Assembly (NCBI RefSeq): GCF_026283965.1
Contig: NZ_JAPDPD010000008.1
Location: 62,001-126,000, forward strand
Direction of reading: 5' to 3'
DNA length: 64,000 nt
From: Dyella subtropica
Lineage (GTDB): Bacteria; Pseudomonadota; Gammaproteobacteria; Xanthomonadales; Rhodanobacteraceae
This document shows positions 54,536-63,929 of this stretch, piece by piece. The notes below the pieces were generated by a model, which worked only from the letters and a program-made list of their open reading frames with translations, was not told the DNA's origin and did not search any database. The first letter of the stretch is position 1. Each line of letters starts with the position of its first letter. The translations under genes and the position numbers were made by a program.

Positions 54536-54560
54536 GGTGAACCCTCCATATCGATGTCTA

Positions 54561-54848
54561 GGGATGCTCTGGTCCATTCAGTACAGGCGTCACCGGTTTT
54601 GTCTGCCCGCATCTCCGCAGTGCGTTGACGAAGGCAGGCTGGCTGCCTGTCGAGGCGACGCGCTGCGGAGATGCGGGCAGACAGAGCCGGCCCCACATGC
54701 TGAATTCAAAGGAAGGGGTGATGTCCAGAAGGCCCGCAGGCTGCGGCGCGCGTCTTGCCAAGGCAGCCAGCCTTGGCTGCGCCACGCACCACACCCTGCG
54801 AGCCTTCTGGACATCATGACGCCTGTACTGAATGGATCAGAGCATCCC
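54561..54848. repeat. Nested inverted-repeat element A (288 bp)
   Basis: Outer arms 54561-54592 and 54817-54848 (32 bp, one mismatch, ends GGGATGCTCTG). Inside are two further palindromes: a 28-bp imperfect stem (54593-54620 with 54663-54690, perfect over its inner 20 bp), and a core (54719-54816) with a perfect 14-bp stem TGATGTCCAGAAGG / CCTTCTGGACATCA and a central CCAAGG-CAGCCAG-CCTTGG hairpin. The core is shared with elements at 58991 and 63672. No open frame. It sits between dipZ and msrB. Confidence 0.92.
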
Positions 54849-54854
54849 TGGGGC

Positions 54855-56576
54855 TCAGCCGAAGGTGAAGGCGTAGGCGTGCACGCCCGGATCGAGGAAT
54901 TCGATGTCGAACAGACGCTCGCCGGTGCCATTCGCCTGCCGTACTAACTGATAGAGGCGCTGCGAGGTAACGGTGCCATTGCCGTCAGTGTCGATGTCCA
55001 TGCCGTGATCGTTACCGGGCGCTTTGCCATCGATGCGCACGCGGAAGCGCACGGGTTTGCCGTCGCTGTCCGGGCCCAGCACAAGGTGCAAGTCGCGGCC
55101 GCGGAAGCGGTAGACGATGCGGCTGCCGGCACGGGTCGCTTGCGCGTTCTCGTCATGCACGTTCCACTCGCCATCTAGCGTCCACTGGTTCGGCAGTAGC
55201 GTGGCGGGTGCGTGGTAATGCCAGCTGTCGTCGTGGGCAATCTGTCCACCGGCGAAGTTCTGCGCGCGGGCGTAGCCCACATAGGTTTCCGACGAGCGGT
55301 TGTCATCGCCGGAGCCTGCGGCTTCCGCGCCCTTCGCATCCGGATTCACATAGCCGCCTGGCAAATCAGTCTGGCCGGCCTCGCTAAGCAATTGGCGGAT
55401 CACATCTTCGCTCTGCGCGTACTCGCCTTCGCCGAAATGGTGGTGGCGAATCTGCCCCTTGGGGTCGATGAAGTAGTGCGCGGGCCAGTATTCGTTGTGG
55501 AAGCCTTTCCAGATCGCGTAGTCGTTGTCGAGCGCCACAGGATAGGTGACGCCAAGATCCTTGACGGCCTTGGTCACATTGCCCAGATCCTTTTCGAAGG
55601 CGAACTCCGGCGCATGCACGCCCAGCACGATCAGGCCGTGGTCCTTGTACTTGTCGGCCCAGGCGCGGACATAGGGCAGGGCGCGGATGCAGTTGATGCA
55701 GGAGTAAGTCCAGAAATCCACCAGCACCACTTTGCCGTGCAGTGACTGCATAGTAAGCGGCGGGGTATTGAGCCACGCGGTGGCGCCGGTCAACGAAGGC
55801 AGCGCGCCTTCGACGGGCAGCACATCACCGGCCTTGTGCGCGGGTTGCGGGGCAGGGGCGGTCTTCACGGCATTGATCAACTTCTGTTCGATCCCGCCAG
55901 TGCTGGCTAGCGATACGCGCGTCAGCAGGCCGGTATCCAACCCCAGCGCGATGGCCGCGACACCGCACAGCACCAGCGCACCCAGCACCCGGCGCACCCA
56001 CTCGCCCGCGCCCAGCGAGCGCTTCATCGCCGAGAAAACCCTGCCGCCCACCACCAGCGCCAACGCCAACGACGTGGCGGCGCCGGCTGCATAGGTCAGC
56101 AGCAACAACGTGGTCTGCACGCTGGCGCCGTTGAGCGCTGCGCCGGTCAGCAGCAATCCGAGAATGGGGCCCGCGCACGGCGCCCATAGCAGGCCGGTGG
56201 CAATGCCGAGGCCGGCGGCCGAGAACACCGAATCGCCATCCGCATCGGAACGCTGCGTGAGCTTGTTGCCCAGCGCCACGAACGGGCGGCTGACCCATTC
56301 GGCGACATGGTTGGACAGCAGCGTGAGTCCGAGTACGGCCAACACCACCAGCGCGACTAGCCGGCCATATTGGTTCGCTCGAATCGCCCAGCCGCCGCCG
56401 ACGGCAGCCAGTGTGGCGACCAGTGCGAAGGTCAGCGCCATACCAAGCAGCATCGGTAGACCGTTGCGCATGAAGGGGCGGTCGGCGCGGGCGAACACGA
56501 AGGGCAGCACCGGGAGGATGCAAGGGCTGAGGATGGTCAGCACGCCGCCGAGGTAGGCGAGGATCAGCACGATCAT
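54855..56576 (-). CDS. dipZ: DipZ: fused CcdA/DsbD-type electron carrier and thioredoxin
   Basis: A 573-residue fusion. Residues 1-235: a CcdA-like membrane domain with TILSPCILPVLPFVFARADR and LLWAPCAGPILGLLLTGAAL, whose two cysteines carry electrons across the membrane. Residues about 265-405: a periplasmic thioredoxin domain with the CxxC site in FWTYSCINCIRALPYVRAWA and WPAHYFIDPKGQIRHHHFGE. Residues about 430-573: a beta-rich C-terminal domain (YVGYARAQNFAGG...DIEFLDPGVHAYAFTFG), the usual DipZ end. It should pass cytosolic reducing power to periplasmic partners, here probably MsrB. The ATG at 56576 is used; a TTG 5 codons upstream is possible. A SigF-type promoter lies upstream, facing this gene. 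Confidence 0.93.
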   Translation of the reverse strand: MIVLILAYLGGVLTILSPCILPVLPFVFARADRPFMRNGLPMLLGMALTFALVATLAAVGGGWAIRANQYGRLVALVVLAVLGLTLLSNHVAEWVSRPFVALGNKLTQRSDADGDSVFSAAGLGIATGLLWAPCAGPILGLLLTGAALNGASVQTTLLLLTYAAGAATSLALALVVGGRVFSAMKRSLGAGEWVRRVLGALVLCGVAAIALGLDTGLLTRVSLASTGGIEQKLINAVKTAPAPQPAHKAGDVLPVEGALPSLTGATAWLNTPPLTMQSLHGKVVLVDFWTYSCINCIRALPYVRAWADKYKDHGLIVLGVHAPEFAFEKDLGNVTKAVKDLGVTYPVALDNDYAIWKGFHNEYWPAHYFIDPKGQIRHHHFGEGEYAQSEDVIRQLLSEAGQTDLPGGYVNPDAKGAEAAGSGDDNRSSETYVGYARAQNFAGGQIAHDDSWHYHAPATLLPNQWTLDGEWNVHDENAQATRAGSRIVYRFRGRDLHLVLGPDSDGKPVRFRVRIDGKAPGNDHGMDIDTDGNGTVTSQRLYQLVRQANGTGERLFDIEFLDPGVHAYAFTFG

Positions 56577-56609
56577 GAGGCAGTGGTCCAAGGGTGGTGT
56601 GACTGGCTA

Positions 56610-56635
56610 TTCGGTGCGGGTGCGTCGAGAGTTAC
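56610..56635 (-). promoter_or_regulatory. SigF/ECF-type promoter for dipZ
   Basis: On the minus strand: GTAACT (56635-56630), a 16-base spacer, then CGAA (56613-56610). The spacing and both boxes match the GTAACC-N16-CGAA motif known for the Caulobacter SigF-NrsF system. The CGAA box ends about 33 bases before the dipZ ATG. Confidence 0.72.
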
Positions 56636-56709
56636 CTGTGCGCCGAATCTTGTAAGGGTGCAGCTAGGCATCTAGTCCCGATGCCGCGCCAAGGTAACCG
56701 CGCCCGAAG

Positions 56710-56735
56710 GTAACCTTGGCCGAACCGGTAGCGAA
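56710..56735 (+). promoter_or_regulatory. SigF/ECF-type promoter for the sigma-factor operon
   Basis: GTAACC at 56710-56715, exactly 16 bases, then CGAA at 56732-56735, 31 bases before the ATG of the sigma-factor gene. A second GTAACC at 56694-56699 has no CGAA at the right distance. Together with the opposite promoter this forms a divergent autoregulated region. Confidence 0.75.
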
Positions 56736-56766
56736 ACCTTCGGTATGCCCTTGCCGCGAGGCGTCC

Positions 56767-57426
56767 ATGTCGCACAGCTTGACCGCGGGCACTGCCATGG
56801 TTCTAGATGACGGTCTTTACCGCCATCTTGGTTTTCGAGCCGTCTTGCCTGCCGAACCGACCAGCACGCATGAAGAAGCCGATCTGCGCCGTGCGGCGTG
56901 GATGGCGGCCGCCCAGGCGGGCGATCGCCGGGCCTACGAGCGCGTGCTGGCCGATTCGCTGCCGTTGATCCGTGCGGTGGCGCGCCGGCAGGGTGTGGCG
57001 ACGGATGCCGTCGACGATGTGGTGCAGGAAACCCTGATCACCGTACACCGCGTGCGGCATACCTACGATCCATCGCGTTCCTACGATGCATGGCTCACCG
57101 CCATTGCCTCACGTCGCGCGATCGACGCGCTGCGCAGCCACGGCCGCCGCGGCCGGCGCGAAGTGCACGACGAATACGCGCTGGAAATTCATCCGGACCG
57201 GGATGACGCCACTCACGAGACCGAGCGCGCGCAGGAGGCGCAGCGTTTGCGCGACGCCATCGCCACGCTCCCACCAGGACAGCGCGAAGCGGTGGAGCAG
57301 CTGGCGTTGAAGGAGCGTTCGCTGGCCGAGGCCGCACAGCACACCGGCCGCAACGTCGGCGCCCTGAAGGTCAATCTGCATCGCGCGCTGAAGGCATTGC
57401 GCAACCGTATCCATGGAGAACCCTAG
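56767..57426 (+). CDS. ECF sigma factor of the SigF (NrsF-partner) type
   Basis: A 219-residue ECF factor. Region 2 includes ERVLADSLPLIRAVARRQGV, DAVDDVVQETLITVHRVRHT and SRSYDAWLTAIASRRAIDAL; region 4 includes IATLPPGQREAVEQLALKER and HTGRNVGALKVNLHRALKAL. It is followed after 5 bases by a DUF1109 membrane protein, the anti-sigma factor of this ECF class. In Caulobacter the pair responds to metal or oxidative stress. The ATG at 56767 has a GAGG upstream; an open upstream extension starts inside the promoter and is not plausible. The probable targets here are its own operon and dipZ (with msrB). Confidence 0.9.
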   Translation: MSHSLTAGTAMVLDDGLYRHLGFRAVLPAEPTSTHEEADLRRAAWMAAAQAGDRRAYERVLADSLPLIRAVARRQGVATDAVDDVVQETLITVHRVRHTYDPSRSYDAWLTAIASRRAIDALRSHGRRGRREVHDEYALEIHPDRDDATHETERAQEAQRLRDAIATLPPGQREAVEQLALKERSLAEAAQHTGRNVGALKVNLHRALKALRNRIHGEP

Positions 57427-57431
57427 GCACC

Positions 57432-58085
57432 ATGTCTGATGTACGACGCCACGAGGTCTTGATCGACGCACTCGGTGCCGAGCTGGTGCCGGTGCGGCGA
57501 CTGCCGCCGCCGTGGCTGCGCTCGCTTGGCTGGCTGTTGGTGGTGTCGGCTATCGCCGTCGTGTTGCTATGGCATTACGGGGTGGCCGACATGCTGCATC
57601 GCTGGGCTGGCACACCGGATTTGGCCTGGGCCGCCGTCGGTGCGTGCTTGACCGCGATCACTGCGGCATGGGCTGCTTTTTCCCTGGGTGTGCCAGGCCG
57701 GCGTGCGCGGTGGGCCTGGTTGCCGCTGCCGCCGGCTTTACTGTGGCTGGGCGCTAGCGGTTTCGGTTGCCTGCGGGAGTGGATCGCACCTGCCACGCAT
57801 GTGGCCAGCATGCACGAGGCCAGCGATTGCCTGTTGTTTATCGTCAGCTTCTCCGTGCCGTTGTCCGCGCTGCTGGTGTGGTTGCTGCGCCGGGCATGCC
57901 CACTGCGTCCCGTACTGACGGCGGTGATGATCGGTCTCGCCAGCGCGGCGGCGTCAGCCAGCCTGCTGGAGATCTGCCACGCGTTCGACGCGGCCGGCAC
58001 CGATCTGCTGATGCACAGCCTCGCCGTCGCGCTGGTGATCGGCGCGAACGCCGCCATGGGTGGCCGGTTGTTGCAGCCGCGCTAA
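57432..58085 (+). CDS. NrsF-type anti-sigma factor (DUF1109), six-TM protein
   Basis: A 217-residue membrane protein with six hydrophobic segments, such as LGWLLVVSAIAVVLLWHY, AAVGACLTAITAAWAAFSL and LLMHSLAVALVIGANAAMGG, and conserved cysteines in SGFGCLREWIAP, EASDCLLFIV, RRACPLRPV and LEICHAFDA. DUF1109/NrsF proteins hold their sigma factor at the membrane and release it when conserved cysteines are modified. The layout directly behind the ECF gene and the presence of two or more periplasmic-side cysteines fit this well. No other function is likely. Confidence 0.9.
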   Translation: MSDVRRHEVLIDALGAELVPVRRLPPPWLRSLGWLLVVSAIAVVLLWHYGVADMLHRWAGTPDLAWAAVGACLTAITAAWAAFSLGVPGRRARWAWLPLPPALLWLGASGFGCLREWIAPATHVASMHEASDCLLFIVSFSVPLSALLVWLLRRACPLRPVLTAVMIGLASAAASASLLEICHAFDAAGTDLLMHSLAVALVIGANAAMGGRLLQPR

Positions 58086-58557
58086 GAGCGAATGTCCGCG
58101 TGCAGGTCGTCGCAAAATCTTCCTGAGGAACGTGGTGCGTCGCAGCGTGAATTGAAGGCTGAGCGGCATTTTCATGGCCTTGCACTCAGTAATGATGGGC
58201 CAAAGGTCTCCTTGGGCCTCGTTTTGCGGTTGTGCTATTGCAGCATTCGGCGTGGCGGCAGTGGACGAGGCGATATTGATGCTGAACGGTGAAGGCGCGG
58301 ACCCGTTGTGTGTCACAGGCGCAGGTATACGCTTAATCCCTGTCGATAGCGCAAGACATCGCGCCATCGAAGGGTTTCGCGGGCCCAGGGACGAACCGTT
58401 GCGCATCGGGCAAGCAGGCTTGATGTGGCGTGACCGTATCCGGTGTTGAGCCGGTGCCGGTATCGCTGATGCAGCTCGGGAGGGGATGCGTCGGCAGCTC
58501 CATGGAAGTGCGGCTATCACCGCACGGTTACCTCAACCGATTCAGGAGAACGTACCC
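58086..58557. other. Intergenic region upstream of the KDxMKS-repeat gene
   Basis: About 470 bases. I found no SigF-type GTAAC-N16-CGAA motif here. An open frame at 58174-58449 has no recognisable product or ribosome-binding site. The promoter of the downstream gene is presumably in the right half. Confidence 0.5.
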
Positions 58558-58923
58558 ATGAAAGTTTCCCGTTACGCCGTACTCGCCCTTTCTATCGCGC
58601 TCGGCTTCGGCGCAAGCCAGACGATGGCGCAGGACGCCGGCGCTGCTGGCCAGGCAGCAAAGGATGCCACCAAGGACACGATGAAATCCGCGCAAGACAC
58701 CAGCAAGGACGCCATGAAGTCCGCGCAGGACACCAGCAAGGATGCGATGAAGTCCACGACGAAGGACACCATGAAATCCGACACGTCGATGAAGTCCGAA
58801 TCGACGATGAAGTCCGAGTCGAAGGAAGGCACTGCCGGCGCGTCCAAGCACAAGCAACACAAGAAGCACCCGAAGAAGGCCGCGACCGAAACGCCGGCAA
58901 CCACGCCGGCCAGCGGCGGCTGA
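58558..58923 (+). CDS. Exported KDxMKS-repeat protein (pentapeptide MXKDX-repeat-like)
   Basis: A 121-residue protein. A clear signal peptide (MKVSRYAVLALSIALGFGAS, cleaved near TMAQ) precedes a low-complexity mature part of repeating KDTMKSAQDTSKDAMKSAQD units (about five), then KSES repeats, a Lys/His block (KHKQHKKHPKK) and a Pro/Thr tail. It resembles the small periplasmic proteins annotated as pentapeptide MXKDX repeat proteins, whose function is unknown. The many Met and Lys residues could serve as oxidant scavengers, and the position next to the MsrB/DipZ/SigF genes makes that appealing, but this is speculation. CAGGAGAA precedes the ATG, and a terminator follows. Confidence 0.85.
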   Translation: MKVSRYAVLALSIALGFGASQTMAQDAGAAGQAAKDATKDTMKSAQDTSKDAMKSAQDTSKDAMKSTTKDTMKSDTSMKSESTMKSESKEGTAGASKHKQHKKHPKKAATETPATTPASGG

Positions 58924-58945
58924 TCTCTTCGCATTGGCTTTCGCG

Positions 58946-58981
58946 CGACCCTCCCTGGTGACGGGGAGGGTCGTTTTGTTT
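58946..58981 (+). terminator. Rho-independent terminator of the KDxMKS-repeat gene
   Basis: CGACCCTCCC (58946-58955) pairs with GGGAGGGTCG (58964-58973) around an 8-base loop, followed by TTTTGTTT. It lies 23 bases after the stop codon. Confidence 0.9.
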
Positions 58982-58990
58982 CTCGTGGTG

Positions 58991-59262
58991 TTAGAGCCTG
59001 TTCAAAGTCTCCGCGTGGCTCGCGCCGGGATCTGTTTGCACGCAGGGCAAGGAAGAGTGAGGGCGTGTACGTCCGTACACAACCGAGCGATGACGCCGCC
59101 ATGCGGGCAAACAGACCCGGCCCGGAGGGTTGATCCACAGAGCGCGCCATGCGGCGGTGCGCGGCTTGGCCTGACAGCCAGTCAGGCGCTGCGCCACGCC
59201 CCACCACCTGGCGCGCTCTGTGGATCAACGCGAGCTACGCGGAGACTTTGAACAGGCTCTAA
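58991..59262. repeat. Nested inverted-repeat element B (272 bp)
   Basis: Outer arms 58991-59024 and 59229-59262 (34 bp, one mismatch, TTAGAGCCTGTTCAAAGTCT...). Inside: an imperfect stem GCCGGGATCTGTTTGC / GCAAACAGACCCGGC, a small GTGTAC-GTCC-GTACAC hairpin (59065-59080), and a core (59129-59229) with a perfect 21-bp stem and a central CCTGAC-AGCCA-GTCAGG hairpin. The core and its CTGCGCCACGC segment match elements A and C. It fills the gap between the repeat-protein gene and the nitronate monooxygenase gene. Confidence 0.92.
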
Positions 59263-59290
59263 TGCCTCCGTTTTGCTGCGGAGAAACACC

Positions 59291-60361
59291 ATGGCTTCCA
59301 AGTGGCTCACCCGGCTTGGCATCGCACACCCCCTGATTCAGGCGCCGATGTCCGGCTCTACCACGCCGGCATTGGTGGCAGCCGTGTCGAATGCCGGCGG
59401 TCTGGGTTCGCTGGGCGCGGGTTACCTCGAGCCGCAAGCCATCCTCGAACAGGCCGCGCAGGTGCGCTCGTTGAGCGACCGGCCTTTCGCAATCAACCTA
59501 TTCGTGTTGCCTGAGACGTTTGATGTCGACGCCGCTGCCGTGGCTTCGGCACGAAGACATCTGGACGTGCTGATGGAGCGTGAGGGCCTGGCCGTGCGTA
59601 CCAGCTTGCCCGAGCGCTGGGCCCCGTCTTTCGCCGGCCAGTTCGCTGCCTTGTGCGAGGCGCAGCCCGCGGTAGCGAGCTTTGCCTTCGACTTGCTCAC
59701 GCCAGCGCAGATGCAGCAGCTCAAGCGGCTCGACATCACCGTAATTGGTACGGCCACCACCGTGGACGAGGCACGCGCTTGGGCAGAGCTCGGCGCGGAT
59801 GCAATCAGCATGCAAGGCGCGGAGGCTGGCGGGCATCGCGGCAGCTTCCTGCATGAGCCGGAGGAAGCGTTGATTGGCCTGTTCGCCCTGCTGCCGCTGA
59901 CGGTGCGCGCGGTGGGCATCCCGGTGATCGCCGCCGGAGGCATCATGGATGGCCGCGGCATGCTGGCGGCGGAAGTCTTGGGCGCGGCGGCCAGTCAGCT
60001 CGGCACGGCCTTCCTGGCTTGTCCGGAGTGCAGCGCCGCCGAGGCCTGGAAACGCGATCTGCCCCTGGCCGCGGAGCATCAGGTCACCACCGTCCGCAGT
60101 TTCTCCGGGAGGGCCGCGCGCGGCCTGCGCAACCGCTATGTGGAGGCCATGCAACCTTTTGAAGCCGCCTTGCCGGCCTATCCCCTGACCAACGCGCTGA
60201 CCGCCCCATTACGCAGGGCTGCCGCGGCGGCGGGGCGCGGTGATTTGCTCTCTGAATGGTGCGGACAGGGCGCTGGCATGGTGCGTGCCCTGCCGGCGGC
60301 CGAGCTGGTGGCGGTGTTGATGGCGGAGTACGCCGAGGCGCGCAAGAACCTATCCTCCTAG
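59291..60361 (+). CDS. Nitronate monooxygenase (2-nitropropane dioxygenase family)
   Basis: A 356-residue FMN enzyme. N-terminal LGIAHPLIQAPMSGSTTPAL is the family opening (QAPM binds FMN). FALDLLTPAQM-like and IGTATTVDEARAWAELGADA strands follow, then ISMQGAEAGGHRGSFLHEPE with the class I catalytic-type His, IPVIAAGGIMDGRGMLAAEV, and QLGTAFLACPECSA. Nitronate monooxygenases oxidise alkyl nitronates such as propionate-3-nitronate to carbonyls and nitrite, and protect against natural nitro toxins. The ATG at 59291 is preferred over an upstream one within the edge of element B. Not obviously part of an operon; a promoter-distance gap precedes rsfS. Confidence 0.92.
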   Translation: MASKWLTRLGIAHPLIQAPMSGSTTPALVAAVSNAGGLGSLGAGYLEPQAILEQAAQVRSLSDRPFAINLFVLPETFDVDAAAVASARRHLDVLMEREGLAVRTSLPERWAPSFAGQFAALCEAQPAVASFAFDLLTPAQMQQLKRLDITVIGTATTVDEARAWAELGADAISMQGAEAGGHRGSFLHEPEEALIGLFALLPLTVRAVGIPVIAAGGIMDGRGMLAAEVLGAAASQLGTAFLACPECSAAEAWKRDLPLAAEHQVTTVRSFSGRAARGLRNRYVEAMQPFEAALPAYPLTNALTAPLRRAAAAAGRGDLLSEWCGQGAGMVRALPAAELVAVLMAEYAEARKNLSS

Positions 60362-60485
60362 TCCAGATAGCCATGCGGACTAGGAGGACAGGCTCCAGGC
60401 CATGGTTTGACGCGGCTTTCAGGTGGGGGCGTTATACTGCGACCGCGCTATCCCGCGTATCGATCCCGCATCGAGGCAAACGCAC

Positions 60486-60875
60486 TTGAGTCAGACCTCC
60501 CTACGCAACAAGTCGGTCAACGCCGATGCCCTCCGCCAGCACGTGATCAACGCGCTGGACGAACTGAAAGCCAAGGATGTTCGTGAAATCGACGTCCGCG
60601 GCAAAACCTCCATTGCCGATCTGCTGGTCATCGCTTCCGGCACTTCCGCGCGCCACGTCAAATCCATTGCCGACGAAGTCGTCAAGTTCGCCAAGAAGGC
60701 GGGCGTGATGCCGCTCGGCGTGGAAGGCGAGCGGGAAGCCGAGTGGGTGCTGGTGGATCTGGGCGACGTGATCGTCCATGTGATGCTGCCACGCATCCGC
60801 GAGTTCTATGGCCTGGAGCGGCTGTGGACTGTGGGCGACTGCGAAGCCGAAAACGAAGCCGTCAGCGCGGGCTGA
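60486..60875 (+). CDS. rsfS: Ribosomal silencing factor RsfS
   Basis: A 129-residue protein of the RsfS/DUF143 family. ALRQHVINALDELKAKDVRE, DVRGKTSIADLLVIASGTSA, RHVKSIADEVVKFAKKAGVM and EWVLVDLGDVIVHVMLPRIR are diagnostic. It binds uL14 and blocks 30S-50S joining in stationary phase. The start is probably TTG 60486 (LSQTSLRNKS) with GAGG 10 bases upstream; no ATG or GTG gives a better N terminus. In relatives it follows nadD directly; here 6.7 kb separate them. rlmH follows after 100 bases. Confidence 0.93.
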   Translation: MSQTSLRNKSVNADALRQHVINALDELKAKDVREIDVRGKTSIADLLVIASGTSARHVKSIADEVVKFAKKAGVMPLGVEGEREAEWVLVDLGDVIVHVMLPRIREFYGLERLWTVGDCEAENEAVSAG

Positions 60876-60975
60876 TCGCCCGCTGGCGTGCGACGACTGT
60901 TGCGCGACATCGTTCGATGCGCGCGCCGAATTTTTTTCGCTCTCTATTTTTTATCCCATTGTTCCTTATCCCCGA

Positions 60976-61446
60976 ATGCGCGCACGCCTGATCGCCGTTG
61001 GTGAACGCATGCCCGCGTGGGTCGCCGAGGGCTTTGCCGAGTACCGCAAGCGGCTCTCGTATGAGTTGCCGCTGGAGTTGATTGAGCTCAAGCCCGGTGC
61101 ACGTGGCAAGGGGCGCGATGACGCCCGCGCGATCCAGGATGAAGGGGGCGCGATTCTCGCGGCCTTGCCACGCGACATCCATGTGGTTGCGCTGGATGGA
61201 CGCGGCAAGACCTGGTCCAGCGAGGATCTCGCGGAGCAACTGGCCAAGTGGCGCATGGCTGGGCGTGATCTTGCGTTCCTGATTGGCGGCCCGGACGGGC
61301 ATGCGCCGGAGGTGCTGGCGCGCGCGGACCAGCGTTGGTCGCTGGGGCCGCTGACCTTGCCGCATATGTTGGTGCGGTTGGTGTTGGCGGAGCAGTTGTA
61401 TCGGGCGACGACATTGCTGGCGGGGCATCCGTATCATCGGGCGTAG
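60976..61446 (+). CDS. rlmH: 23S rRNA pseudouridine-1915 N3-methyltransferase RlmH
   Basis: A 156-residue SPOUT methyltransferase, standard length. MRARLIAVGERMPAWVAEGF, AEYRKRLSYELPLELIELKP, VVALDGRGKTWSSEDLAEQL, LAFLIGGPDGHAPEVLARAD and the C-terminal LVLAEQLYRATTLLAGHPYH cover the family. The knot binds S-adenosylmethionine, and the final Tyr-His acts at the target site. It methylates the helix 69 pseudouridine of assembled ribosomes. ATG 60976; the upstream 100 bases include a T-rich stretch. Confidence 0.96.
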   Translation: MRARLIAVGERMPAWVAEGFAEYRKRLSYELPLELIELKPGARGKGRDDARAIQDEGGAILAALPRDIHVVALDGRGKTWSSEDLAEQLAKWRMAGRDLAFLIGGPDGHAPEVLARADQRWSLGPLTLPHMLVRLVLAEQLYRATTLLAGHPYHRA

Positions 61447-61458
61447 TGCGTTCCATTC

Positions 61459-61540
61459 GTCACCCCGGCGTAGGCCGGGGCCCAGTGGCGTTGCCGCTTC
61501 GATGTTCGCGTTGTCGCGACCTGGCTCGCCTGCGGCGGGC
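61459..61540 (+). repeat. Mosaic intergenic repeat, copy 4 (3' part only)
   Basis: GTCACCCCGGCGTAGGCCGG with GGCCCAGTGGCGTTGCC, then TCGATGTTCGCG and GACCTGGCTCGCCTGCGGCG, aligning with the second half of 48360-48505. The hairpin at the 5' end of the full repeat is absent. Confidence 0.82.
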
Positions 61541-61623
61541 GTTGCATGTACTCGAACGATTCGTTGCACCTGGCTTCGCCTTCGCTATGCTCTCGGGCAA
61601 TTTCCCCAATGACTGAGCCATCC

Positions 61624-62073
61624 ATGTCCTTCACCGTGCGCCATGCCACGATCCACGATCTCGATATCATTGCGCCGCTGTTCGATGCGTATCGCCAGTT
61701 CTACAAGCAGCCTTCGGACCTTGCGCTGGCGCGCCGTTTTATCGCCGAGCGGTTTCAGCATGCTGAATCGGTGATTTTGCTGGCGCTGGACGAACAGGGG
61801 CAGGGTATTGGGTTTACCCAGCTCTATCCGTTGTTCTCTTCGGTGCGTGCTACGCGTAAGTATCTGCTCAACGACATGTTTGTCGTGCCGGAAGCGCGGC
61901 GTCTCGGCGTGGCGGCTGCGTTGCTCGAGGCGGCGGCGGAGCATGGTCACGCGATGGGTGTTTCGGGTCTGTCGTTGTCCACGGCGCACGACAATCTGGC
62001 GGCGCAGCGTCTGTATGAGTCGATGGGCTGGGTGCTTGAAGAAGAGTTTCGCGAGTACAACCTGGCGCTCTGA
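61624..62073 (+). CDS. GNAT-family N-acetyltransferase
   Basis: A 149-residue acetyltransferase. TVRHATIHDLDIIAPLFDAY opens the fold, YLLNDMFVVPEARRLGVAAA holds motif A with the acetyl-CoA pyrophosphate loop (RRLGVA), and LSTAHDNLAAQRLYESMGWV is motif B. The substrate cannot be predicted. ATG 61624 (MSFTV) is preferred; ATG 61609 is an alternative. It lies between rlmH and maf, a position where relatives usually have no gene, so it may be a local insertion. Confidence 0.88.
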   Translation: MSFTVRHATIHDLDIIAPLFDAYRQFYKQPSDLALARRFIAERFQHAESVILLALDEQGQGIGFTQLYPLFSSVRATRKYLLNDMFVVPEARRLGVAAALLEAAAEHGHAMGVSGLSLSTAHDNLAAQRLYESMGWVLEEEFREYNLAL

Positions 62074-62132
62074 TTCGTGATATCTCGCGAATATCGCGCG
62101 ACGCATCTTCTCATTCCAAGGAAGCTCGATTC

Positions 62133-62699
62133 ATGCTCTACCTCGCTTCGCAGTCGCCGCGTCGGCGTCAGCTGCTTGAACAGATCGGCATCGCATTCAC
62201 GCCTGTCGATGTGGATGTGCCGGAGCAGCGCGCCGTGGGCGAGTCGCCTATCGACTATGTCAGCCGCGTAGCACGCGACAAGGCGCAAGCCGGCAGAGCG
62301 GGGTTGGCGAATGGCGCGGTGGTATTGAGCGCGGATACCGAGGTGGTGCTGGACGACGAGGTATTTGGCAAGCCGGCCGATGCCGCTGACGCCACCGCCA
62401 TGCTGCGTCGTCTTTCCGGGCGCACGCACGAGACGATTTCGGTGGTGTGGGCGGTGCAAGGTGATCGTGCGGAGAGTGAGACCTGCGTGTCGCGCGTGCG
62501 TTTCGCCGCGTTGAGCGACGAGGACATCGCCGCCTATGTCGCCAGTGGCGAGCCGTTCGGCCGTGCGGGTGCCTATGCGATCCAGGGGCGCGGTGCGACG
62601 CTGATCGAACATCTGGAAGGCAGCTTCACCGGCGTGATGGGGCTGCCGGTGTTCGAGACCGCACGGTTGTTGCGCAGCTTCGGTATTGCGCCGGGCTGA
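62133..62699 (+). CDS. maf: Maf/YhdE-family nucleoside triphosphate pyrophosphatase
   Basis: A 188-residue protein with the Maf signatures LYLASQSPRRRQLLEQIGI (S-x-SPRR), YVSRVARDKAQAG, VLSADTEVVLDDEVFGKPAD and SGEPFGRAGAYAIQGRGATL. YhdE-type Maf proteins hydrolyse dTTP, UTP and modified pyrimidine triphosphates to monophosphates. It lies near rsfS and rlmH, as in Xanthomonas-type genomes. In those relatives rng (RNase G) tends to follow; here the next gene is on the other strand and unrelated. Confidence 0.94.
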   Translation: MLYLASQSPRRRQLLEQIGIAFTPVDVDVPEQRAVGESPIDYVSRVARDKAQAGRAGLANGAVVLSADTEVVLDDEVFGKPADAADATAMLRRLSGRTHETISVVWAVQGDRAESETCVSRVRFAALSDEDIAAYVASGEPFGRAGAYAIQGRGATLIEHLEGSFTGVMGLPVFETARLLRSFGIAPG

Positions 62700-62713
62700 A
62701 TCGCGTGACTGTG

Positions 62714-62736
62714 TCGCGCACAAGGTGCGCTCCTAC
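62714..62736. repeat. Single REP-like unit 4
   Basis: TCGCGCACAAGGTGCGCTCC followed by TAC, the inverted form of the unit found at 30021, 43211 and 53821. No partner is visible here. It lies 6 bases before the stop codon of the convergent gene. Confidence 0.75.
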
Positions 62737-62741
62737 ATGGC

Positions 62742-63554
62742 TCAGCCTGGTGGAACCAGCACGAACCACGACACTACCGCCAGCGCATTGTTGACGCTGT
62801 GCGCAATCACGGCCGGCCAGATCGATCCGGATTGAACCCGCAGCCATGCCAACACCAGGCCCAGCAACAGCAGGTTGGGGAGGGCGTACCAGAGGAAGCC
62901 CAGGTCCGGCAGGTGGACGCAGGCGAACAGCAGGGCGGTGATGGCGGACGCGATGCCCGCCGGCACATGGCGCATGGCCGAGGAAAGCAGCACGCCACGG
63001 AACAGCAGTTCCTCCACCAGCGGCCCCACGGTCATCACCAGTAGCGCAAGCGGAATGCGCAGCGCCGGCGAAGCCATGGCGCCGAGCTGCTTGATGTCCT
63101 GGCTGACTTCGTGACCCTGCGCGAGCCATTGGGTGAGCAGGCCGCCAATGAACGGCAGTATCAGACCGAGCAACGCGGCGATCGCGTAGAACGCCGGTTG
63201 CCGTGCGGGTGCGAAGCCAAAGCCCGGCGGCATGGCCAGCGGCCATAGCGATGGCCACAGGCGGCGGGTGAGATGGATGGTCAGGCCAGCGGCTACCAGC
63301 AGGGTGAGGATCACCATCAGCGCATTGACGTCGGGCTGTGTGAGCAAGGCATGCATCTGCGTCATCACGTTGCCGCCCTGAGCCCCATGACGGAAACCAA
63401 CGACGAGGCCGATGACCAATCCCGCCACGGAACCGACGACAAACTGCAGTGCGAAGTACAGCACGATCAAGCCCAAGGCCGCCCATAGTGTCGGCAGGCG
63501 CGGCGGCGTCAGTGCGGACGGTGTGAAGATGGGGTCAAAGCGCGGTGCTTCCAT
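62742..63554 (-). CDS. CPBP-family intramembrane glutamic/metallo endopeptidase
   Basis: A 270-residue membrane protein with about seven hydrophobic segments. The CPBP (CAAX/Abi) motifs are present: VGPLVEELLFRGVLLSSAM (EExxxR), LLFACVHLPDLGFLWYALP (FxxxH-like) and IWPAVIAHSVNNALAVVSWF (HxxxN). The family contains CAAX-processing enzymes and bacteriocin self-immunity proteins; the substrate here is unknown. It stands alone, convergent with maf, with about 375 bases upstream that include palindromic element C. Confidence 0.93.
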   Translation of the reverse strand: MEAPRFDPIFTPSALTPPRLPTLWAALGLIVLYFALQFVVGSVAGLVIGLVVGFRHGAQGGNVMTQMHALLTQPDVNALMVILTLLVAAGLTIHLTRRLWPSLWPLAMPPGFGFAPARQPAFYAIAALLGLILPFIGGLLTQWLAQGHEVSQDIKQLGAMASPALRIPLALLVMTVGPLVEELLFRGVLLSSAMRHVPAGIASAITALLFACVHLPDLGFLWYALPNLLLLGLVLAWLRVQSGSIWPAVIAHSVNNALAVVSWFVLVPPG

Positions 63555-63929
63555 CGGGCTACATCCTGGAGGGCGGGTTCGCCGGGGGCAACGGCGCGCC
63601 CATCTCCCGACGGCTTACACGCTAGCCGCCACCATCGCGCATGCGCAATCCTGCCCTTCGTCATGGTCGTAGGGATGCTCTGAGCCCGTCTACGCAGCCG
63701 TCATGATGTGTGGGAGGTTCGCAGGGTGTGGCGCACGGCGACGGCAAGGCTGGCTGCCTTGGCTAGACGTGGGCCGCAGCCTGCGGGCCTCCCACACATC
63801 ACCCTGTCATCCAAATTCAAAATGTCAGAGCCGGTGACGGCTGCGTAGACGGGCTCAGAACATCCCCGAGCCCTGCCTGTATAGTGGCCGGGTTTTCCAA
63901 GGAGGAAGCTGGCGCCAAGGCGCCGTCTC
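63555..63929. other. Intergenic region between the CPBP protease and TerC genes
   Basis: It contains nested inverted-repeat element C (63672-63866). A TATAGT at 63881-63886 could be a -10 box for the TerC gene. Just before that gene lies AAGGAGGAAG and a GGCGCC-AA-GGCGCC palindrome (63911-63924). Confidence 0.6.
63672..63866. repeat. Nested inverted-repeat element C (195 bp)
   Basis: Outer arms 63672-63703 and 63835-63866 (32 bp, one mismatch) start GGGATGCTCTG as in element A, but the rest of the arm is different and still paired. The core (63704-63801) has a perfect 14-bp stem TGATGTGTGGGAGG / CCTCCCACACATCA and is the reverse complement of the element A core, with the same CAGCCAG loop. 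The large second hairpin of element A is missing. It lies upstream of the TerC gene. Confidence 0.92.

Follow-up and report, generated by a model that had tools for sequence, protein, structure and literature searches.

What keeps the arms of a large palindrome complementary when the bases that form them change? The question is raised by three intergenic elements, designated A, B, and C, which lie within a 64-kb stretch of a Dyella subtropica contig (NZ_JAPDPD010000008.1, positions 62,001 to 126,000 of the forward strand), referred to here as the window. The elements have fixed ends, occur as dispersed copies at TA-containing sites, are absent from sister species, and show covariation of their stems. 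The interpretation that they are copies of a family of miniature inverted-repeat transposable elements (MITEs), that is, of non-autonomous DNA transposons, of Xanthomonadales has, together with the full mechanism discussed below, about an even chance of being correct. Since the stems change their sequence yet stay paired, the folded shape of these palindromes may be more important than the sequence itself.

A, B, and C follow a common plan, in which outer arms of 30–34 bp enclose one or two hairpins of ~100 nt (Table 1). The arms are 97% complementary in each element (taken in B over 58991–59024 and 59229–59262), and folding as single-stranded DNA yields z-scores of -18.7 (A), -16.0 (B), and -12.8 (C) relative to shuffled sequences, with no shuffle folding as well (0/100 for A, 0/200 each for B and C), bearing out the three palindromes described at these positions in a first-pass annotation of the window. 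A and B contain two hairpins each; C contains a single one in the opposite orientation and thus represents the A type in reverse, hairpin 1 being absent. An AGCCA loop with a GCGCCACGC-type segment is present in A and B, and the other strand of C carries AGCCA with CGCCGTGC. Two types of ends are found on this plan, with A and C having the tips GGGATGCTCTG and B the tips GAGCCTG. The modular assembly that the annotation had suggested is supported, the opposite orientation of the core in A and C corresponding to an insertion the other way round. Its observation that B lacks GGGATG tips stands as a distinction between two end-types, although it was drawn from three elements only, in a genome with ~59 loci.

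The extent of the family was assessed with a covariance model of hairpin 2, seeded with 29 of the 37 elements extracted from the genome of the window (G000; other G-numbers denote genomes searched and L-numbers individual element loci), including hairpins 2 of A, B, and C. Up to 66 candidates per genome were scored in a survey of 61 genomes, and up to 150 per genome in a later search of G000, G051, and G059. In G000, 105 matches at E <= 0.01 correspond to ~59 loci when strands and hairpins are merged within 300 bp, the best of them reaching an E value of 2e-21. In a BLAST search of the same genome, A has 98 matches (E <= 10) and B has 82, overlapping matches included, comprising both partial and full relatives. 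Model matches are present in 27 of the 61 genomes (own included), namely in 25 of the 37 searched within the family and in 2 of the 24 from elsewhere in the order. The counter-proposals of the annotation, namely that only three copies exist or that each arose by an independent local inversion duplication, both fail, as copies are far more numerous and the apex is homologous between hairpins. The exact apex pattern was found in 71 stretches of a named collection, of which 61 come from Rhodanobacter, Dyella, Luteimonas, Xanthomonas, Stenotrophomonas, or Pseudoxanthomonas, and the remaining 10 carry other names, largely of vague metagenome bins; all but one of the 71, a Thiorhodococcus bin, also match the model. 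Phage and plasmid collections queried with B yielded no match. The pattern GAGCCTGTTCN{200,230}GAACAGGCTC returned nothing, its permitted gap being too short. Eleven contig ends of G000 lie within or at a hairpin-2 match (C1, C2, C4, C10, C12, C16, C18, C20, C24, C25, and C29). Assembly thus seems to fail at these palindromes, and drafts are likely to underestimate the copy number of the family.

Units of the family are non-coding, range from about 160 to 340 bp, and end in GAGCC, GGGATG, or GGGCG, and outer arms of ~30–34 bp each are detectable in 102 of the 107 elements tried. G009 contains 21 full, near-identical units of 271 bp with exact ends in common and unrelated flanks, 20 of which have CTAG, in itself a palindrome, at both ends. 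Comparison of orthologous sites, proposed in the first-pass annotation, shows that the insertions are missing in all comparable congeners. No copy of A is found at the orthologous place in 5/5 congeners (G003 has another sequence there), B is missing in the four alignable ones, the fifth not being alignable at this site, and C is missing in the three that were aligned, with a flank spacing consistent with its absence in all five. The empty site of B reads GTGGTGTAATGC in three congeners and ATGGTGTAATAC in a fourth, and in G000 the element is placed between GTGGTGTTA and TAATGC, which fits insertion at a 3-bp TAA target, one base having since changed in the left copy. TNA is present on both sides in 65 of 77 tips, the two middle bases being identical in 24 cases, complementary in 18, and neither in 23, and the other 12 are not TNA; conversion of the target base beside the arms to complementarity is unsupported by these counts. 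A gene stop lies within 20 bases of an element boundary in 57 of the 99 elements with callable neighbours, as expected for insertion at TA(A/G), and a separate count places such stops at the right end in 39 cases and at the left in 21 (p 0.027); these are raw counts with no chance control, and the gene calls come from a crude frame-composition method.

IS5/IS427 insertion sequences (ISs) are DDE transposons, and their ends resemble those of some units. ISPssp5, an 837-bp member of IS5/IS427 with the direct repeat TA, has an inverted repeat that shares 15 bases, GGGCGTGTCATCAAT, with the tip of the G009 units (PMC6514802, Table 1). These 15 bases recur at one end of an IS5-family element of 831 bp in G011 (family NF033580). 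An 845-bp IS5-family element in G022 has the ends GAGC(A/C)TGTCGTCAT next to TA and shares TAGAGCCTGT with the tip of B on one side; 23 of its OrfA matches are 99–100% identical. In G007, one IS5 end, GGGCGTGTTAACACTATA, resembles the tips GGGCCTGTTAACAC of some units, and the second end of that element was looked for and not found. G009 itself contains a truncated IS5 gene, with a lone GGGTGTGTCATCAATC end ~1.4 kb away. Ends in common with IS5/IS427 are thus present for the GGGCGTGTCATCAAT tip and partially for the GAGCC tips (G022), and similarity in sequence supports an IS5/IS427 type of ends for some of the units. Some of the matches in other families of the order (16 in G051, 4 in G059) are units that keep the plan but end differently, as in TAGTGTCCTGTCACGTTAATT, read by eye in five of seven stretches, the two without a visible element having the locus off-centre. 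The folded core may hence have been exchanged between sets of IS ends. Among these matches, L113, L115, L339, and L348 are nested-palindrome units with different terminal repeats. Ends of the GAGCCTGTTC type found in B were also observed around unrelated interiors in L232 (654 bp), L233 (367 bp), L238 (153 bp), L237 (89 bp), L240 (187 bp), and L243, the last with the end GAGTCTGTTC and a GTAGGAGCGCACC-type repeat. L235, L236 (51 bp), and L234 (47 bp) are short palindromes with such ends and nearly no interior; inspection by eye shows perfect complementarity of the arms in both 51-bp palindromes.

Covariation of the stems is strong when compared with shuffled and slid controls. For hairpin 2 (29 copies), the covariation score is 0.729, as opposed to 0.182 +/- 0.015 after shuffling and 0.077–0.120 after sliding, with 94.2% of 770 cells paired and changes on both sides in 22 of the 27 pairs. 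For the whole B-type unit, represented by 16 full-length copies (266 bp in 12, 265 bp in two, and 267 bp in two), the corresponding values are 0.363, 0.107 +/- 0.008, and 0.046–0.070, with 96.6% of the cells paired and 36 of the 78 pairs changed on both sides. None of 500 shuffles matches the observed score in either case, although these controls ignore kinship and the copies are related by descent. Deletion derivatives, such as L076 and L029, also occur. Variability of hairpin 2 was mapped on 60 of 67 full-length best-strand matches, with L171, L177, L184, L192, L204, L222, and L225 omitted as duplicates or as not being 101 nt long. Positions 5–13 of hairpin 2 differ in 54–71% of the between-copy comparisons, and most positions of the outer arm past its tip do so in 34–72%. 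Almost no variation is seen at the tips, at the inner arm ends (CCGC), or at the foot of hairpin 2. The 60 matches stem from loci with the exact apex pattern and the conservation of their apex is partly built in; unlike these, the 29 copies from G000 were found by BLAST free of any motif, and in them the hairpin-2 apex, with its unpaired internal loop, also consists of invariant columns.

The first-pass annotation had taken such covariation to mean that the fold is under selection. The covariation itself is real, but the conclusion does not follow from it alone, since template switching in replication, as proposed for ribosomal RNA (rRNA) hairpins (PMC8794818), can also keep arms paired. Changes were counted in hairpins of 101 nt only (64 and 80 copies in the two analyses). 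Five close pairs of copies at the same site, with homologous flanks, differ by 22 single changes and 1 double change, whereas 14 non-orthologous pairs with no more than eight differences show 46 single and 33 double changes (p 4e-4). This suggests a loss of pairing in copies that stay in place, and a link of compensation to lineages that have transposed, although the test is fragile. Transitions account for 69 of 138 compensated changes (50%), as opposed to 93 of 109 single mismatches (85%; Fisher p 4e-9). Their share in this larger set is lower than the 61% reported for instantaneous changes in rRNA (p 0.009), whereas among closer copies, after re-registration, it does not differ from that value (44 of 79, p 0.36), so that it does not discriminate between the readings. 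In G009, three arm mismatches are common to 19, 21, and 21 of the 21 copies; transposition thus involves no re-copying between the arms, and it tolerates a few mismatches.

An additional feature of the arms is an asymmetry of their mismatches. Across hairpin 2 and the outer arms (102 elements), mismatches of a 5' C with a 3' A exceed every other transition type, by 24 to 9–10 in hairpin 2 with the loosest clustering and 67 to 12–13 with 90% clustering, and by 63 to 25–44 in the outer arms (61 to 22–25 without one recurrent position). On the complement strand, U.G-type mismatches outnumber those of the A.C type. The excess is independent of the direction of the neighbouring gene, and a common G.T in the outer arms of B has the opposite sense, in 10 of 16 copies. 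Selection on an RNA strand, as judged by wobble counts, was rejected, since just one kind of mismatch is in excess, whatever the gene direction. The element thus has an intrinsic asymmetry of strand or arm, the origin of which is a puzzle.

The mechanism that we propose would involve an IS5/IS427-type DDE transposase, supplied in trans and acting on the outer arms, with insertion at a TA site, often adjoining a stop codon. The inner hairpins would, with less certainty, have to fold, as an extruded cruciform or as a transcript, in those copies that serve as good sources. Lineages that continue to move would then keep the stem length, the pairing, and the conserved apex while the stem sequence drifts, copies merely resident in the chromosome would gradually lose pairing, and template switching would probably be the source of some of the double changes. 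The near-constant length and the conserved internal loop speak for selection, and the reading favoured here, on evidence that is not decisive, is that the fold is selected in lineages that move, double changes being supplied by template switching. We regard as unlikely the further-reaching possibility of a structural inheritance, in which the mobility of an IS5/IS427-like DDE MITE would need single-strand folding, so that length, pairing, and the apical motif would be selected and the stem sequence left free.

Several observations weigh against the proposed mechanism. No IS end matching the GGGATGCTCTG tips was found, and searches of G000 for an IS5-type transposase, limited to three families, returned no match to PF01609 (E <= 1e-3), to the OrfA of G022 (1e-8), or to NF033580 (1e-6). 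A transposase gene co-occurring with the family, as envisaged in the first-pass annotation, is not borne out over the 61 genomes, with NF033580 present in 8 of the 27 that have the element and 11 of the 34 that lack it (p 1.0); the proposed explanation as a whole is held slightly less firmly for this reason. B is flanked by TTA on the left and TAA on the right, compared to TAA in the empty site. Two more distant same-site pairs (L174/L179 and L072/L216) differ by 12 single and 14 double changes. They were kept out of the test above because they may represent independent insertions into a shared site rather than older orthologues; with all seven pairs taken together (34 single, 15 double) the contrast to 46 and 33 is lost (p 0.26). 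The 69 transversions among the 138 compensated changes are hard to explain by stepwise selection, appearing as if both arms often changed together, and the arm mismatches common to 19–21 of the 21 units of G009 indicate that perfect pairing is not needed.

The main rival is a neutral one, in which ordinary MITEs maintain their palindromes by template switching during replication, copying arm onto arm without selection on the fold. Such switching has been proposed as a mechanism for rRNA hairpins (PMC8794818), and it would account both for the high share of transversions among the compensated changes and for the 14 double changes in the two distant same-site pairs. Double changes would also be expected in resident copies, where the five close pairs provide just one against 22 single changes, and the base outside the arms shows no preference for complementarity (18 complementary against 24 identical, 23 neither, and 12 non-TNA). 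The near-constant length and the conserved unpaired loop are left unexplained as well, and we consider this explanation somewhat unlikely.

A structured RNA, transcribed from the element and with a fold that the element or its host would use, the apex being a predicted binding site, is improbable. The strong covariation and the conserved apex would be typical of it, as might the proximity to gene stops (57/99) with its bias to the right end (39 vs 21) and the prevalence of U.G-type mismatches on the complement strand. In turn, no Rfam family is matched at gathering score in the 64-kb window, and the only two weak matches, both to A, involve microRNA precursor models. The asymmetry of mismatches concerns a single kind and is independent of direction, and the outer arms of B carry a common G.T of the other sense. 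Sister species lack the insertions, which are thus dispensable. Transposition of single-stranded DNA, mentioned in the first-pass annotation, or structure-specific recombination (of the IS200/IS605, REP/RAYT, or attC-like type) would be in keeping with conserved unpaired bases on variable stems of folded hairpins and with the intrinsic asymmetry of mismatches. The terminal inverted repeats, the TA-type targets, the support for a target duplication at B, and the IS5/IS427-like tips speak against it, and it appears very improbable, although no search for tyrosine transposases was made. Independent local inverted duplications, or chance, can be practically dismissed in view of homologous hairpins at ~59 loci (E to 2e-21) and of none of 500 shuffles reaching the observed covariation, with nothing in their favour.

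Table 1. Components of elements A, B, and C (window coordinates)
Feature	Position	Strand	Basis or remark
TA at left edge of A	54559–54560	.	right edge is TG
Element A, complete two-hairpin unit, GGGATGCTCTG tips	54561–54848	+	missing at orthologous place in 5/5 congeners
A left outer arm (terminal inverted repeat)	54561–54592	+	inverted-repeat match
A hairpin 1, inverted relative of hairpin 2	54593–54690	-	hairpin-2 model match on minus strand, E 8.7e-9
A hairpin 2, AGCCA loop	54719–54816	+	model match E 1.1e-18, seed member
A right outer arm	54817–54848	+	inverted-repeat match
B left target copy, TTA (TAA in empty sites)	58991–58993	.	empty-site alignment
Element B, complete two-hairpin unit, 266 bp, GAGCCTGTTC tips	58994–59259	+	empty site in 4 aligned congeners
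B left outer arm	58994–59023	+	inverted repeat and B-type alignment
B hairpin 1 with inner GTGTACGTCCGTACAC hairpin; inner end approximate	59024–59123	+	fold and B-type alignment
B hairpin 2	59129–59229	+	inverted repeat; model match E 7.1e-21, seed member
B right outer arm	59230–59259	+	inverted repeat and B-type alignment
B right target copy, TAA	59260–59262	.	empty-site alignment
Element C, reversed A end-type without hairpin 1	63672–63866	-	171-nt inverted match to A, 76%
C outer arm	63672–63703	-	inverted-repeat match
C hairpin 2	63704–63801	-	model match E 4.0e-16, seed member
C spacer in place of missing hairpin 1	63802–63834	-	sequence
C other outer arm	63835–63866	-	inverted-repeat match

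Directly upstream of B, 33-bp repeats are located at 58667–58789, within a small open frame (58486–58923).

Compensatory change is usually read as a strong sign of a functional RNA, and here it is strong in dispensable mobile DNA. The family, which has dozens of copies in a genome, sites that can be dated, and some orthologous copies, lends itself to distinguishing selection on a fold from mutation by template switching, and it raises the question of whether an element of the cut-and-paste type can depend on a folded intermediate. For annotators, it is relevant that contigs break in these hairpins and that confusion with RNA genes is possible.

We recognised no description of the family in searches of the open-access literature. 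Elements mobilised by IS200/IS605 or RAYT transposases are not known to have terminal inverted repeats or target duplications, and the terminal repeats of the units, together with the support for a duplication at B, speak against such an element. REP/REPIN sequences associated with RAYT are likewise dispersed palindromes, but they are 20–40 bp long and tagged with GTAG or CGTC (PMC3733652); the units are far longer (~160–340 bp) and have IS-like ends (GAGCC, GGGATG, or GGGCG), which does not fit REP or BIME. Closer in their ends are ISPssp5 and other members of IS5/IS427, which have in common with the units the GGGCGTGTCATCAAT tip and probably the TA direct repeat (Table 1 of PMC6514802) as well as the related ends in G011 and G022. 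They differ in encoding a transposase within 831–845 bp, whereas the units are non-coding and form large hairpins. ERIC, RUP, and Correia elements are, like the units, small, non-coding, and foldable, with terminal inverted repeats. The same is true of QMITE2 of Coxiella (PMC10969869), although compensatory hypervariable stems are not mentioned in the passages considered, and the word "compensatory" occurs 0 times in that review. The rRNA hairpins for which maintenance by template switching has been proposed share with the units the compensatory changes in their stems (PMC8794818), but rRNA is a functional RNA and the units are mobile, dispensable insertions. We would call a MITE with IS-like ends a known kind of element, and the hypervariable, compensated stems its new aspect.

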